Shown here: positions 22,924 through 63,330 of the stretch, in pieces
Layout of the letters: every line of letters begins with the position of its first letter
Numbering within the stretch: the stretch's first letter is position 1
Origin: Bifidobacterium coryneforme
GTDB taxonomy: Bacteria; Actinomycetota; Actinomycetes; Actinomycetales; Bifidobacteriaceae
Assembly: GCF_000737865.1 (NCBI RefSeq)
Contig: NZ_CP007287.1
Coordinates: 1,102,872-1,166,871 of the forward strand
DNA length: 64,000 bases
Reading direction: 5' to 3'
Translations under genes and position numbers: made by a program
The notes under the pieces: model-generated
The model's database searches: none
What the model saw: only the letters and a program-made list of their open reading frames with translations
Told to the model about the DNA's origin: nothing

Positions 22924-25530
22924 TCAATTGCCGAAGTAGGAGATGGCACCCGTCAATCCGGCCACGGTCAGGGCCACCACCGGAACGGCAAGGCAGATCG
23001 ATAGGTAGCACCAATCCCTGAGGCTGACTTTCGAAATCCGGGCATGGGTGCGTTCCACACGTCCACCGAACCCTCTGGCTTCCATGGCCGTAGCCAGGGT
23101 GGTCGAGCGCCTGATGGACAGGACCAGAAGGGCGAAGGCCTGCGGGAAGAAGGCCTTGAACCTGTTCTCATCACCCAACCCCCTGCTCCGCCTTGAAGCC
23201 GCAAGAGCGGTCCAGTCATCCCGCAGGACCGAGAAGAGTCGCAGCCCCGCCAACCCCCCGTACACGAACCGCTCAGGCAGGTGGAGAACCTGACTGAAGG
23301 CATCGGCCAGATCAGTGGCATCAATGCCCAGGACAGTGATGATGGCGGGTATTCCGATGGCGAGGATGCGCAGGGCAGTGGCAAGGGCCAGGTCCACCGA
23401 ACGCTGGGTGACGTGAATCATCCCCCAGGTCCAGTACGTGGCTCCTCCGGCCTTCCCATACAGGATGATGGCCAGGGCCGACCCCGGAGCTCCCAGGAAG
23501 ATGGGCCAGGCGGACCTGACAATCCTCCACGGGGTGAAGCCGGCCGCCATGAGGAGAATCAGCTCAAGTCCCAGAGCCACCGTGGCGGAGACCCAATCCA
23601 GACTGATCAGGAGGGGAAGGGCGGTCAGGAAGGCCCCCAGCAGGCGAAAAGCCGGATTGATGGAGGCGATATAGGCCGAGCGGCTTGACATTCTCGGAGG
23701 CTCGTCGCGTTGATTCATGGCCGCAACCGGCAGGACGACCGTATCCGGCACGTCCCGCCCACCCTCAGGGGCGATCTTCGCCTGTGCGGCAGCGGTCACC
23801 GGTGTTTGCCCGACTTCCCGCCGCGCCGATGCACAGACCGTTGCCTGCGAAGACCTCCCGACCGATTCGCCCGGCACCAGGCGTACCACACGGGCACCCA
23901 GGGCCTTGACCAGGTCCATATCATGAGTGACCACGATGATGCAGATCCCGTCGGCGCGCAGGGAATCGATCAACTGGGCCATACTGGTCCAAGTGACCCT
24001 GTCCTGCCCGAAGGTCGGTTCATCGAGTATCAGCACGCGGGGGGCCGCCGCCAGAGCGGCAGCCACCGTCAATCGGCGCTTCTCCCCCCCTGAGAGGGTA
24101 TAGGGATTGGCACTGGCGTATTGGTTCAGGTTGAACCGCTTCAGAAGACTTCGGGCCCGTTCCCTGGCCTCTTCCTCGGTGGCTCCGGTTCTGAGCGGGG
24201 CCACCATGACCTCTTCAAGCACAGAGCCCCGGGCGAACTGATGCTCCGGATTCTGGAAGACATAGGAGATACGTGAGGCCAGGTCGGTGGATTTCCAAGC
24301 CGACGGAGCGGATCCGTCCGCCATCGGCTGGTCGGGACCGTCACCTCCGACCAGCTCGGCCGAGGCGACCACACGACCGGAGACGGGTTCCATAAGACCT
24401 GCCAGAGTCATGGACAGGGTTGATTTACCAGCCCCGTTGGCTCCGACCAGGGCCGTTACCTCCCCCGTATGAAAGGCCAGATTGATACCGGAGGCGATGG
24501 CCCTGCCGTCTCGCCCGACGGCAAGATCGACCGTCTCCAGAATCGGGTCGCCGGCGGTGGAACCCGGGTCTTCACCCAACCGGGGCCGGCTCGAAATGCG
24601 GTCCACCTGGTCCGCCGGCCCCTTATAGGGGTCGGGTACCCATATCCCCAAAGCGGCCAGGTCGAGGCTTCTGTCGGAGAAGACCTGCTCGGGCGTGCCA
24701 TCGGCCATAACGATGGTGCGACGGAAACCGTCCCCTCCTGCCCTGCCTTCCTGACCTTCCACAGGGCCCAGCCCCAGCACGATGACCCTGTCGATCATTT
24801 CCATCCAGGGCTGCGCCCGGTGCTCCACCAGAATCATTGTGGAATGACGGCGGTCGAGAACCTGTCGAACCGCTCCGACAATCTGATGGACCCCGTCAGG
24901 ATCCAGGTTGGCCGTGGGCTCGTCAAGAAGCAGAAGACCCGGTTCCATGGCCAGGGCTCCGGCAAGTGCCAGGCGCTGCATCTGTCCACCACTGATATGC
25001 ATGGTGGACCTGGTCAGTTGCAGGTCCTGCAGTCCCACGGCACACAGGGACTCGTCGACCCTCCGCCATATCTCCTCCCTGGGGACCGCCATATTCTCGG
25101 GACCGAAGGCGACGTTATCACCAAGCCGCTGGAAGATGGCCTGAGCATCGGGATCCTGCAAAACAAGCCCCACGCGGCCGCCGACCCCACCAGCAGGTTG
25201 GCCATCGACCAGTATCCTTCCCCTGGTCACTCCCCCATCGGCGTCCTCCACCTCGATGGGCTGACCGCCAGCGGCACCGGCGTTCTGGACTCTGAGGGCT
25301 CCTTCCTGGTCACCCAGAATCCCGGCGATGCCCTCTAGAATTGTGGACTTTCCTATGCCGGAGGCCCCCAGGAGGAGCACACGCTGCCCGGCAGGGATGG
25401 ACAGGGAGAGGTCACGGACCGCGAAATGACTCCGATAGGCGTGACGATACCCCCAGTGGTCCAGGTCCAGACCTGCCGGTCTGGTCAGATCCGATCCATC
25501 CCCGGGCTGTGCTGAATCGGCTCGGGTCAC
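22924..25530 (-). CDS. Fused ECF transporter energiser: two EcfA ATPases plus EcfT (YkoC/YkoD-like)
   Basis: An 868-residue fusion of the three ECF energising parts. The first ABC ATPase (about residues 20-280) has Walker A GASGIGKST, signature ISGGQMQRL and Walker B LLLLDEPTANLD. The second (about 315-560) has GANGAGKST, LSGGEKRR and LILDEPTFGQD. From about 640 on there is a polytopic EcfT domain with the coupling motifs SRRSRGLGDE and MEARGFGGRVERT. The GTG start overlaps the YkoE stop as GTGA. It works with the adjoining YkoE S-component in the membrane and is controlled by the TPP riboswitch, so thiamin, HMP or a related pyrimidine is the likely cargo. Confidence 0.93.
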   Translation of the reverse strand: MTRADSAQPGDGSDLTRPAGLDLDHWGYRHAYRSHFAVRDLSLSIPAGQRVLLLGASGIGKSTILEGIAGILGDQEGALRVQNAGAAGGQPIEVEDADGGVTRGRILVDGQPAGGVGGRVGLVLQDPDAQAIFQRLGDNVAFGPENMAVPREEIWRRVDESLCAVGLQDLQLTRSTMHISGGQMQRLALAGALAMEPGLLLLDEPTANLDPDGVHQIVGAVRQVLDRRHSTMILVEHRAQPWMEMIDRVIVLGLGPVEGQEGRAGGDGFRRTIVMADGTPEQVFSDRSLDLAALGIWVPDPYKGPADQVDRISSRPRLGEDPGSTAGDPILETVDLAVGRDGRAIASGINLAFHTGEVTALVGANGAGKSTLSMTLAGLMEPVSGRVVASAELVGGDGPDQPMADGSAPSAWKSTDLASRISYVFQNPEHQFARGSVLEEVMVAPLRTGATEEEARERARSLLKRFNLNQYASANPYTLSGGEKRRLTVAAALAAAPRVLILDEPTFGQDRVTWTSMAQLIDSLRADGICIIVVTHDMDLVKALGARVVRLVPGESVGRSSQATVCASARREVGQTPVTAAAQAKIAPEGGRDVPDTVVLPVAAMNQRDEPPRMSSRSAYIASINPAFRLLGAFLTALPLLISLDWVSATVALGLELILLMAAGFTPWRIVRSAWPIFLGAPGSALAIILYGKAGGATYWTWGMIHVTQRSVDLALATALRILAIGIPAIITVLGIDATDLADAFSQVLHLPERFVYGGLAGLRLFSVLRDDWTALAASRRSRGLGDENRFKAFFPQAFALLVLSIRRSTTLATAMEARGFGGRVERTHARISKVSLRDWCYLSICLAVPVVALTVAGLTGAISYFGN

Positions 25531-26213
25531 GCCTTGGTTCCTTTACGGCTTCCGCTCCTGGGCAGGCGGCCCGACTCGAAGCGATCGAGGGCACCGGTCC
25601 TGGCTATGGCCAGATAGAGATACCAGACCAGAACCCCCGCCAGGAGGGCACCGGAGACCAGGGTGGCCACCAGGTAGATCAGACCGTAAGGACCGGTCAG
25701 ACTGATGGCTTGGAGATGGGTGCAGAAGGTGTATACCCAGCAGCCCAGCCCGGCAGCCATCCCCGACAGGGTGACCGTGGGCAGATTCCAGCGGCGATAC
25801 CGGCACAGGGCGAAGACCAGCTCGGCCATGGCACCCTGGAGAAGTCCTATCAGGAAGGTTTCGACCGGAACCCATTGGCTGCCCAGGAGGGATTCCAGAA
25901 CGGCGGCGACGACCTCGGCATAGATGGCCGCTCCGGGTCGACGCACGATGAGAATGGCGAGAGGGGCCGCAAAGAGATACAGACCATTGAGGATTCCGCC
26001 CAGGCCCGGGATAACACCATCGAGGAGAGACCAAGGCACCGACGTGACGATGGCCACCACCCAGTAGATGAATGCGCTGGCCACACCGATGACCGAAGCC
26101 ACGGCGATATCGACCACCCGCCAACGATTGGAGTGCCTGATATGGGTGACTTCCCCGTCACCTCTGGATCTGTCATCTTCGCCTTGGAATGGGGTCTGAT
26201 TCTGACTGTTCAT
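25527..26213 (-). CDS. ykoE: YkoE-type ECF S-component (thiamin or HMP uptake)
   Basis: A 228-residue integral membrane protein with five to six hydrophobic spans (VVDIAVASVIGVASAFIYW, VIPGLGGILNGLYLFAAPLA, FLIGLLQGAMAELVFALCRY, GLIYLVATLVSGALLAGVLV). The pattern fits YkoE, the substrate-binding subunit of YkoEDC transporters. I placed the start at the ATG at 26213, after AAAGG. The upstream leader is a TPP riboswitch, and the downstream gene is the fused A-A-T energiser, overlapped by four bases. This context supports a thiamin precursor as substrate. Substrate identity remains inference. Confidence 0.9.
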   Translation of the reverse strand: MNSQNQTPFQGEDDRSRGDGEVTHIRHSNRWRVVDIAVASVIGVASAFIYWVVAIVTSVPWSLLDGVIPGLGGILNGLYLFAAPLAILIVRRPGAAIYAEVVAAVLESLLGSQWVPVETFLIGLLQGAMAELVFALCRYRRWNLPTVTLSGMAAGLGCWVYTFCTHLQAISLTGPYGLIYLVATLVSGALLAGVLVWYLYLAIARTGALDRFESGRLPRSGSRKGTKA

Positions 26214-26220
26214 GATTACT

Positions 26221-26268
26221 GTGCCTTTCCGTAAGCACACCCTTGGGTGCGCATCCTGTTCAAGGCAC
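26221..26268 (-). promoter_or_regulatory. Expression platform of the TPP riboswitch
   Basis: In the mRNA, GTGCCTT (complement of 26262-26268) can pair with AAGGCAC (complement of 26221-26227), which contains the ribosome-binding AAAGG of ykoE. An inner hairpin (26235-26252, GCGCACCC/GGGTGTGC) stacks beneath. The layout suggests control of translation by hiding the ribosome site rather than a U-tailed terminator. Confidence 0.55.
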
Positions 26269-26276
26269 GGGTTGAG

Positions 26277-26378
26277 TGACATCCGTGCGCCGGCATTACC
26301 CGGTAAACGTTCGTCCGGTCGAGGCTGAGCCTCCTCTCAGCCACACGCTGCTCTGCAGCATGCGGCCCCCGTGTCACC
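26277..26378 (-). promoter_or_regulatory. TPP (THI-box) riboswitch
   Basis: Read on the minus strand, the leader has ACACGGGGGCC at the 5' side, the near-invariant GTGTGGCTGAGAGG of the pyrimidine sensor helix, then GAACGTTTACCGGGTAATGCCG and GGCGCACGGA at the 3' side. These are the hallmark segments of the thiamin pyrophosphate aptamer. It lies upstream of ykoE, which fits thiamin-related transport. It should lower expression when TPP is plentiful. Confidence 0.93.
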
Positions 26379-26401
26379 ACCTACTTTAGGACCAGCCTTG
26401 G

Positions 26402-52677: not shown

Positions 52678-52838
52678 GCCTCCATTGTTGCACCTCCGGA
52701 GACCGAACAGGCGAGCGCGGCGGAACATCCGCAGGATGTACTCCCCGCAGTGTGGGTATCGATCCGTATTGGGCCGATGTGTCATTGGATACAGAGGTTT
52801 GACCTCCATATGGCCCACTGCTAGATTGAAACCGTCAA

Positions 52839-52963
52839 GTTTCAGGGAAGGTGAGAGTCCTTACTGGCGGTATCCGGTTGCAATCCGGGAGCCCGCGACC
52901 CGCGCGAGCGGTGGATATCGGTGAGAGTCCGAAGCCAACGGTTACAGTCCGGATGAAAGAAAC
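52839..52963 (+). promoter_or_regulatory. FMN riboswitch
   Basis: The leader of ribU has TTTCAGGGAAGGTGAGAGTCC, GGCGGTATCC, AGCCCGCGACCC, GGATATCGGTGAGAGTCCG, AAGCCAACGG and AGTCCGGATGAAAG: the conserved blocks of the RFN element. P1 can form from GTTTC (52839-52843) and GAAAC (52959-52963). The ribosome-binding GAGG of ribU follows P1 at once, so FMN binding could block translation. Confidence 0.95.
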
Positions 52964-52973
52964 GAGGCTCTAT

Positions 52974-53585
52974 ATGAGCATGCCTTCGCATACCGAAAAC
53001 CAGGAACACCACGATGCGAATCTCGGTGGGTCCTTCGAATTCCACTCAACGACGGCAGGACGAGGAGGACGTTGGTCAACCAAGCGCATCGCTGTATACG
53101 CGCTCTTCGTGGCCTTGACCATCGTCCTGAGTTATGTTTCCATTCCGATTTTCCCTGCTGCCCCCTTTCTGAAGTATGACCCTTCCGGAATCGTGGTCCT
53201 GGTGGCAGGATTTGCTTTCGGCCCCTTGGCCGCCGCCGTCGTCGGCACTCTCGGATTCGTGCCCCACATCTTCAGTAATCCCTTCGGGGCCCTGATCGCC
53301 ATCATCGTCGCCCTGGCCCTGGGGCTGCCGGCGGCCTTCATCTACAAGCGAATCCGCACTCGAAAAGGCGCGGTCATCGGCATTCTGATCGGATCGGTGG
53401 CGGGTCTGGCTGCCGCCATACTCTGCAATGTGATCATCACCCCCATATACGCCCACATGAGCTTCCAGCAGGTTCTGGGCATGATCATCCCCGTCCTCCT
53501 GCCCTTCAACCTGATGAAATTCGCAATCCACGGGGTCATCACCTTCCTGATCTACAAGCCCATCTCAGTCCTGGTCAACCACTGA
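52974..53585 (+). CDS. ribU: Riboflavin ECF transporter S-component RibU
   Basis: A 203-residue integral membrane protein with about six spans (IAVYALFVALTIVLSYV, GIVVLVAGFAFGPLAAAVVGTLGFV, ALIAIIVALALGLPAAFIY, GAVIGILIGSVAGLAAAILCNVIIT, VLGMIIPVLLPFNLMKFAIHGVITFLIY). The IPIFPAAPFLKYDPSGIVVLVAGF and GTLGFVPHIF stretches match RibU-type S-components. The ATG at 52974 has GAGG six bases upstream, right after the FMN riboswitch. That regulatory link makes riboflavin the expected cargo. The energising partner is probably the fused gene 50 bases downstream. Confidence 0.92.
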   Translation: MSMPSHTENQEHHDANLGGSFEFHSTTAGRGGRWSTKRIAVYALFVALTIVLSYVSIPIFPAAPFLKYDPSGIVVLVAGFAFGPLAAAVVGTLGFVPHIFSNPFGALIAIIVALALGLPAAFIYKRIRTRKGAVIGILIGSVAGLAAAILCNVIITPIYAHMSFQQVLGMIIPVLLPFNLMKFAIHGVITFLIYKPISVLVNH

Positions 53586-53635: not shown

Positions 53636-56108
53636 GTGAGTTATAAACCGGTACAGACGATTCGGGACGACGAACCCTTGGCCGTCCTGGACGAGGTCTC
53701 TTTCAGCTATGACCAGGGTCGAACCTGGGTACTCGACCATGTGAGCCTGACCATCCATCGAGGAGAACGGGTTGCCGTCGTCGGAGCCAATGGGTCAGGC
53801 AAGTCAACCCTTGCCCTCCTGCTGGCCGGCGCCCTGGCACCTGACCGGGGACGCATCGAACTGAGAGGGCAGGTTGTATTCGACTCCGCCCGCCCCTGGG
53901 CCGAACGGGTGGACACCGATGCCTACCGCCAGGTCAGGGAAGGCATCGGGATGGTGTTCCAGAATCCGGAGGATCAGATAGTCACCACCGTCACTGAGGA
54001 TGACGTTGCCTTCGGACCGGAGAATCAGGGCATGGCACGACCTGCCATGCAGGCGTCCGTCGTGAGGTCTCTCAAGGAGGTCGATCTGTCCGGCCGCGAA
54101 CGGTCTGACCCGACCAGGATGTCCGGCGGCCAGCAGCAGCGGGTCTCCATTGCCGGTGCCCTGGCCATGGACCCTGACATGTTGGTGATGGACGAGCCGG
54201 GCGCCATGCTGGACTCGTCCGGTCGAAGCAGAATCTCCACCATCATGGCCACCATGGCCGAGCAGGGTAAGACGGTGGTTCACATCACCCATCATCTCGA
54301 CGAGGCCGGCACTGCCAGCAGGGTGATTGTCCTCGATCAGGGTCGCATCATCGCCGACGGTCCTCCCGACCAGGCGCTGCCCACCCTGTACCGGCAACTC
54401 AACACCGACTCCCCCGCATCAGGGGCAGGTAGGCATACGGCCGATTGGGATGCCAACACATCCGGAGTCGGTTTGGGCCAGCGCACCGAGCACCGGCACG
54501 ACACCTCCGACGAAGAGGAACCCGCTGTGGAGGCCAAGGGCCTTTCCTACAGGTTCGGTGAGGGAAGACGCCAGGTGGTGGATCACCTCGATTTGAGACT
54601 GGAAAAGGGGCGGACCCTGGCCATACTAGGTCCCAACGGTTCCGGCAAATCAACCCTTGCCCGGTTGATCTGTGCACTGATTCGCCCGACCGAGGGGGAT
54701 CTCTCAGTAGCGGGAATACCGCTGACCGTTGGGGGAAACACCCCGCGACGGGCCCGCAACCGTCGGCTCGGCATGCTGCGACAGCGGGTGGGATATGTGA
54801 TGCAGAAGCCCGAACACCAGCTCTTCGCCGAAACCGTGGCGCAGGATGTGGCCTATGGCCCCGGCAATCTCGGTTTCGACAAGGGGGATACCGCCCTACG
54901 CGTGAAACAGGTTCTCACCCTGCTGGGATTGGAGGAGCTGTCCGACCGCTCCCCCTTCGACCTTTCCGGTGGTCAGCAGCGCCTGGTCGCCTTGGCTGGC
55001 GTTCTGGCCACATCTCCGAAGATTCTGGTACTGGACGAGGTGACGGCCGGTCTGGATCCCAAGGCGTCCGAAACCATCATGACCGTGTTGGAGCGCCTCC
55101 AAGGTGAGGGTGTGACGATCATTCTCATCACCCATGATGAAGAAGAGGTCATCCGCCTGGCCGACCAGGCCCTCCTCATGAACCAGGGACACATGGTCTC
55201 GCACGGCAACGTGGGGAAGGTTCTCAAGGATTACCACGACCTACGGGCCCATATCAGCTCTTCGGGAAACCACGAGGAGGACTCCGGGACCGAACAAATC
55301 GAAGAACCAGCATCCGAGAGCAAGGCAAAAGACCAGGCGGACGGGTCTTCCCTGATTGCTCGCCTGGATCCCCGAGCCAAGGTGGTCTGCTTCCTGATGC
55401 TCATGGTCACCTCCTTCTTCATCGGCACTGGGCCGCAGCTCATCCTGGGAGCGTTGGTCACTCTGGCAATCATCATGGCGGCGCGAATATCGCCGCTGAA
55501 ACTGATGAAATCGGTCAGTGGACTCCTGGCCCTCCTGGTACTGGTTGCCCTGCTGAATCTCCTGGTTACCCGAGACGGCACCGCCCTGACCCGATGGGGA
55601 CCGTTGATCATCACCGACCAGGGGCTATGGGCCGCTCTGGTATATACCTGCCGGTTTGGCCTTGTCCTCCTTTTGGGGGCCCTCCTGCTCATGACCACAA
55701 CGCCGACACAGATGACCGACGCCTTCGAGTCCCTCCTCTCGCCCCTGGGCAGGCTCGGAGTCCATACCAGCGAGATATCCCTGGTCCTCTCCCTGGCTCT
55801 GCGGTTCATCCCGACGCTGGTTCGGGAGATGCAGTCCATCCGTGAAGCCCAGGCCGCCAGAGGTGGAAGCATCGAAAGCGGCAGCCCCTCCCGACGGGCA
55901 CGGGCCATGGCCGCCATCATCATACCGGTCTTCGCCGCCGGCCCTGCGCCATGCAGACAATCTGGGACAGGCACTGGATGCCCGCTCCTACCATGGAGGA
56001 AGGGGTCGCACCCACTACCGGATCTCCCGGATGCGTGGCATCGATTACGGGTTCATCACTCTGGTCGCCGTCTACCTCGCTCTCCTGGTGGTCCTGATTT
56101 TCCTCTGA
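53636..56108 (+). CDS. Fused ECF energiser (two ATPases plus EcfT), frameshifted as read near the 3' end
   Basis: Second A-A-T fusion of the window, serving RibU. First ATPase with GANGSGKST, RMSGGQQQRVSI and MLVMDEPGAMLD; second with GPNGSGKST, LSGGQQRL and ILVLDEVTAGLD; EcfT from about residue 585, with the first coupling motif EAQAARGG. Near 55938-55941 the frame jumps: the next family-like segment (ALRHADNLGQALDARSYHGG, with the second coupling motif) is in frame +1 and stops at 56108. One extra base in the run GCCGCCGGCC explains it. As read, the first frame ends at 56140 with an unrelated tail. Start is GTG at 53636. A sequencing or assembly error is the simplest cause; a true inactivating change is the alternative. 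Confidence 0.85.
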
Positions 56109-56154
56109 CAGGCACCTGCGAAGCTTCAGTGTGTCGGTAGGTTAAGCGCCACGT

Positions 56155-62574: not shown

Positions 62575-63330
62575 TCAGTCCCCTGTCAGAGGCGAGGTTG
62601 AATCCTTGGGACTGCGAATCATATAGCCGATGCCGCGCTTGGTTTCAATCAGCGGGGTCACCTTGCGGAGGCGACCATCCTGATCCTTGACCTTGATGCC
62701 GTCCACCTTCTTGCGCAGGTAGGAGATGTAGGACTCGACGATGGCTGCGTCACCGCCCCAGTCATACTGCCATACATGATCCAGAATCTGCGCCTTGCTC
62801 AGGACCCTTCCTTCGTTGTCCATCAGATAGCGCAGCAACTTGTACTCGGTGGGACTCAGACCGATGGGCTGACCTGCGCGGGTCACATCGTGGGAGTCCT
62901 CATTGATCTCCAGATCTCCCACCCTGATCAGGGGGTCGTCCTCCTCATGCTCCCTGGTGCGGCGAAGGATGGCCTTGATCCTGGCAACGACCTCTTCCAG
63001 ACTGAAGGGCTTGGTGACGTAGTCGTCCCCGCCCACGGTCAGCCCCATGACCTTGTCCTGGGTGTCGTCCCGGGCGGTGAGGAAGAGGACCGGCGCGTCA
63101 ATCCCCTCCTGGCGAATGCGGGAGGTAACCGTGAAACCATCGATGTCGGGCAACATCACGTCCAGAACAATCAGGTCCGGCTTGGTTTTCTCTATGACCT
63201 CGATGGCTTCGGAACCCGATGCCGCAGTGGTCACCTCAAATCCAGCAAAGTGGAGGGAGGCCACCAGAAGATCCCTGATGGAAGGCTCGTCATCTACAAC
63301 GACCAGGCGTGCTTCGGTTGGTTTGCTCAT
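62575..63330 (-). CDS. OmpR/PhoB-family response regulator
   Basis: A 251-residue regulator. The receiver domain has the acidic pocket VVVDDEPS, the phosphoacceptor Asp57 in LIVLDVMLPDIDGF, the switch Thr in LFLTARDD and the Lys in DDYVTKPFSLEEV. The C-terminal winged helix is of the PhoB type (GLSPTEYKLLRYLMDNEGRVLSKAQILDHVW, then VESYISYLRKKVD). It is co-transcribed with the histidine kinase. The resemblance is to actinobacterial TcrA/MprA-like systems. Targets cannot be read from this window. Confidence 0.95.
   Translation of the reverse strand: MSKPTEARLVVVDDEPSIRDLLVASLHFAGFEVTTAASGSEAIEVIEKTKPDLIVLDVMLPDIDGFTVTSRIRQEGIDAPVLFLTARDDTQDKVMGLTVGGDDYVTKPFSLEEVVARIKAILRRTREHEEDDPLIRVGDLEINEDSHDVTRAGQPIGLSPTEYKLLRYLMDNEGRVLSKAQILDHVWQYDWGGDAAIVESYISYLRKKVDGIKVKDQDGRLRKVTPLIETKRGIGYMIRSPKDSTSPLTGD

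Follow-up and report, generated by a model that had tools for sequence, protein, structure and literature searches.

The question raised by this locus is whether a Bifidobacterium that seems unable to make riboflavin has lost the protein that powers its riboflavin uptake, or whether its genome sequence carries one base too many. The window (the whole 64,000-nucleotide stretch analysed) comes from a probable honeybee-gut dweller, with a genome of 1,755,151 bases in one contig.

The riboflavin importer locus and its change of frame

The features of the locus are collected in Table 1. The FMN riboswitch upstream of ribU was the single RF00050 match found across the window's genome. The mechanical open reading frame that contains ribU (52851-53582) begins inside this riboswitch, and its product matched PF12822 (72.3 bits) and PF07155 (51.7 bits, cut-off 26.7), both above the cut-off; a riboflavin S component under FMN control is thus present (PF07155, RF00050). 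The following gene encodes two ECF-type ABC ATPase domains (TIGR04520, 460.7 bits with a cut-off of 315, and TIGR04521, 444.7 bits with a cut-off of 330; these are whole-protein scores, over two stretches each) fused to an EcfT/CbiQ transmembrane domain (96.6 bits, cut-off 25). As judged from its sequence, the locus encodes a dedicated riboflavin importer of the ECF type, ordinary and of a known kind, with predicted transport activity, in which RibU would bind riboflavin and the fused ATPase-ATPase-EcfT protein would power RibU. Like the bifidobacterial ECF riboflavin transporter, it has an FMN riboswitch, RibU, a pair of ECF ATPases and EcfT next to one another; the difference is that here the tail of EcfT lies in another frame. 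One study describes a ribU with an upstream FMN riboswitch in B. infantis, and a single copy of ribU in all the species investigated there (PMC7522473). By descent, the locus of the window is a member of the ECF family; its product as written is incomplete.

Table 1. Coordinates in the window of the features of the riboflavin importer locus.
Feature	Position	Strand	Basis or remark
FMN riboswitch, upstream of ribU	52834..52968	+	Rfam RF00050, 83.7 bits, E 1.5e-17, gathering 66.2
ribU, riboflavin S component	52974..53585	+	Putative start codon
EcfA-EcfA'-EcfT fusion read in one frame, 834 aa	53636..56140	+	ORF; TIGR04520, TIGR04521, PF02361
First ATPase domain	53690..54379	+	TIGR04520 best stretch, residues 19-248
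Second ATPase domain	54533..55252	+	TIGR04521 best stretch, residues 300-539
EcfT (CbiQ) domain, in-frame part	55346..55936	+	PF02361 residues 571-767, profile 2-190 of 216
First X-Arg-X coupling motif (Ala-Arg-Gly), in frame	55856..55864	+	Sequence
Frame-change site	55938..55943	+	One base more in the window than in the same-species copy (alignment, frames)
Native EcfT tail with stop, other frame	55941..56108	+	53/55 residues equal to the same-species tail
Second X-Arg-X coupling motif (Ala-Arg-Ser), shifted frame only	55980..55988	+	Sequence
Last hydrophobic segment of EcfT, shifted frame only	56037..56105	+	Seen in translation

The upstream frame is open from 53636 to 56140, with no stop until 56138, and from about 55940 the continuation of EcfT is found in the next frame, which closes with a TGA at 56106-56108. 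The BLASTN comparison with a genome of the same species, B. [indicum] LMG 11587 (G014), revealed that the window carries a surplus G at 55940, although it is arbitrary which member of the local GG is given this label. With one base fewer, the G014 copy reads through to a stop matching the one at 56106-56108, and the next relative (L061, 404/508 identical over the stretch) likewise lacks the extra base. When aligned to the 823-aa G014 protein, residues 1-768 of the window copy matched in one frame (98.6%) and residues 769-823 in the next (96.3%), leaving residues 769-834 of the window product (55940-56137) out of frame. The high identity of the tail (Table 1) indicates that the frame-shifted match is not due to chance. 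These results confirm the frame change. They also bear out the initial annotation, which had recognized the energiser of RibU, placed the change of frame near 55940 with the tail running to 56108 in the next frame, and explained it by one extra base; the comparison with related strains that it suggested gave the same answer in both relatives.

In the product as written, the 55 native C-terminal residues are replaced by 66 unrelated ones, and EcfT retains one in-frame X-Arg-X motif instead of two. It had been proposed that a coupling helix with the second ATPase-coupling motif is lost. The motif is indeed absent from the frame of the product; however, this description was incomplete, as the last hydrophobic segment, probably a membrane helix, is also gone. 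Accordingly, the CbiQ match of the window gene ends at profile position 190/216, whereas in all 26 other genomes of the genus the best-matching copy reaches position 215 or 216. The intact EcfT of G014 aligns over 247 to 251 residues, nearly the whole length, with the solved EcfT chains 5d3m, 4hzu and 4huq (E 7.3e-34 to 8.8e-32), and both X-Arg-X motifs fall inside the alignment. In those structures EcfT is a separate chain; in the window it forms one protein with both ATPases, and its second motif is out of frame. Arg replacement in the two motifs reportedly inactivated subgroup II ECF transporters (PMC3246461). As the second of these motifs is out of frame, together with the last hydrophobic segment, the energiser as written should not work. 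The reported inactivation also argues against a real insertion in this strain.

The energiser gene in other genomes

The energiser gene was matched in 27/27 genomes of the genus, that of the window included. It is in one frame in 24/26 of the others, the same-species genome among them, and the tail motif is present in 26/26. Together with the read-through of the G014 copy, this conservation favors a surplus base in the sequence, and it also bears on the idea that the ribosome changes frame here by design. For a conserved programmed frameshift, the frame change itself is all that can be adduced; a shift conserved among relatives was not found, given that 24/26 copies read in one frame and the two exceptions break elsewhere. 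Programmed frameshifting was consequently rejected, and we consider it highly improbable.

The two exceptions, G015 (L034, about 2712-2784) and G021 (L033, about 1495-1507), are broken at different places, both inside the second ATPase. In the 40 kb around them, the other matched genes were in one frame in 15/15 and 9/9 cases, respectively (pieces of >38% identity, E 1e-20 or better, some of the matches being partial). This speaks somewhat for real breaks in G015 and G021 and does not favor poor assembly, and suggests that breakage of the energiser gene may be tolerated. Both copies thus count in favor of a real insertion in the window and against an error. A broader proposal would be that the energiser is repeatedly broken in nature (3/27 genomes of the genus, at three places), the predicted auxotrophs surviving by leaky frameshifting or by lending another ECF module to RibU, and a dedicated energiser being dispensable; we regard this as a long shot.

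In a further set of 20 Bifidobacterium loci, several of which belong to genomes already in the genus set and are not independent, each gene was in one frame at least as far as residue 796 of the 823. In the wider family, 158/189 genomes were matched; among the matches listed, those of G045 and G070 are likewise in short open frames.

Riboflavin requirement and other ECF modules

Lumazine synthase was found in 0/27 genomes of the genus (control 14/14) and riboflavin synthase in 0/3 (control 11/14), while flavokinase was present in 3/3. Of the S-component and riboflavin importer families, ECF_trnsprt and BioY were searched for in the window's genome; the first gave one match and the second none. 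These gene contents predict a riboflavin auxotroph, for which one RibU, under one FMN riboswitch, was found. RibU is reported to be essential in B. breve (PMC7522473). The accessible part of a TraDIS study lists one riboflavin-utilisation gene without giving its name, and in that part nothing was found on the energiser (PMC5514069).

With a predicted auxotrophy and one RibU found, a real loss should be nearly lethal, as would be expected of a true null of the importer. The loss of riboflavin uptake that the initial annotation considered is therefore doubtful: given the apparent inability of this bacterium to make riboflavin, a real loss is less probable than a sequencing error.

If one base had truly been inserted recently in this strain, EcfT would lack the last part of coupling helix 3 with the X-Arg-X motif of that helix, and also the last hydrophobic segment. 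RibU would then be unpowered or borrow another ECF module, in a strain living on rich medium. Two further EcfT domains in the window's genome make such borrowing possible and weigh to that extent against an error; however, they lie in other loci, with ATPases of their own fused or adjoining. The predicted auxotrophy with one RibU also speaks against this insertion, as does the absence of any other break in ribU or in the first 768 residues of the energiser, both of which are open and conserved, as would be expected if the surplus base were an error. We consider a real insertion of this kind unlikely.

If the insertion were real but partly overcome by leaky slippage, ribosomal or transcriptional, a little full-length protein would be made, which would reconcile the mutation with an essential function. 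However, no slippery run was obvious by eye at the site, and the 71 nt downstream folded no better than shuffled sequences (z -0.49; 59/200 shuffles at least as good) when this one stretch was folded as a pseudoknot-free structure. Moreover, the upstream frame is free of stops until 56138, so there would be no forced pause. The chance of such a bypass appears slim.

The second ECF module of the genome lies in the window within 23047-26382 and comprises an 872-aa open frame on the minus strand with ATPase and CbiQ matches. Near it is a TPP riboswitch (26264-26382), which presumably points to the uptake of thiamine or a precursor. A third ECF-like locus (L003, G000:C1:46839-50519) encodes a 491-aa double ATPase and an EcfT-like protein; its membrane protein, examined by eye, may be an S component.

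Differences between the two assemblies of the species

Over 154,372 compared bases, 40 indels whose length is not divisible by three separate the window's genome from G014; 22 of these fall in the 30-66 kb stretch. At least three of the 40 cut a recognized conserved domain, a lower bound given that, besides EcfT, four loci were checked with Pfam (one of them without a family) and the rest were judged by coordinates. These three affect EcfT in the window's genome, and a response regulator and carA in G014. The window encodes the whole response regulator at 62787 (251 aa), whereas a one-base difference leaves G014 with a 189-aa version (L141, 13963-14532). A one-base difference also removes the end of the glutamine amidotransferase domain from the carA of G014 (L158, 17153-18343), which is kept in the window's genome. 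Such isolated breaks of conserved genes fit sequence errors and lend support to an error in EcfT too, although very young mutations would look alike. In the bases compared, however, no conserved gene other than EcfT is shown to be broken on the side of the window's genome; since the other two breaks lie in G014, they do not demonstrate errors in the window assembly. That the site is no long homopolymer also weighs against an error. No sequencing platform was found for the window's genome in the record listings or in the available portions of PMC10092428 and PMC5540593. An apparent break of guanylate kinase, considered as a broken essential gene of the same assembly and hence as proof of error, was dropped, as the indel falls right where the mechanical open reading frame begins and the kinase is intact.

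Relative to the same-species copy, the head of the protein (its first 768 residues) has 13 synonymous and 10 nonsynonymous changes, and the tail has 0 synonymous and 3 nonsynonymous changes, two of them in one codon (Fisher p 0.22). The exclusively nonsynonymous changes of the tail lean toward a real insertion and away from an error, but they are too few to count, and decay of the tail was rejected as proof of a real mutation.

Taken together, the evidence leads us to infer that the extra base is probably a sequencing or assembly error and that the living strain carries an intact gene: one surplus base in the GC-rich EcfT stretch would be an artefact, and the transporter in the living strain would be ordinary. 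The initial annotation itself had named an outcome contrary to a real frameshift, namely a superfluous base in the sequence; this is the better-supported reading, though not a proved one. If the base is an error, the reference riboflavin transporter protein of this strain is wrong and unfit for inferring a loss of uptake. If it is real, a predicted auxotroph would be living with its dedicated energiser out of order, which would suggest that one ECF module can replace another in bifidobacteria.
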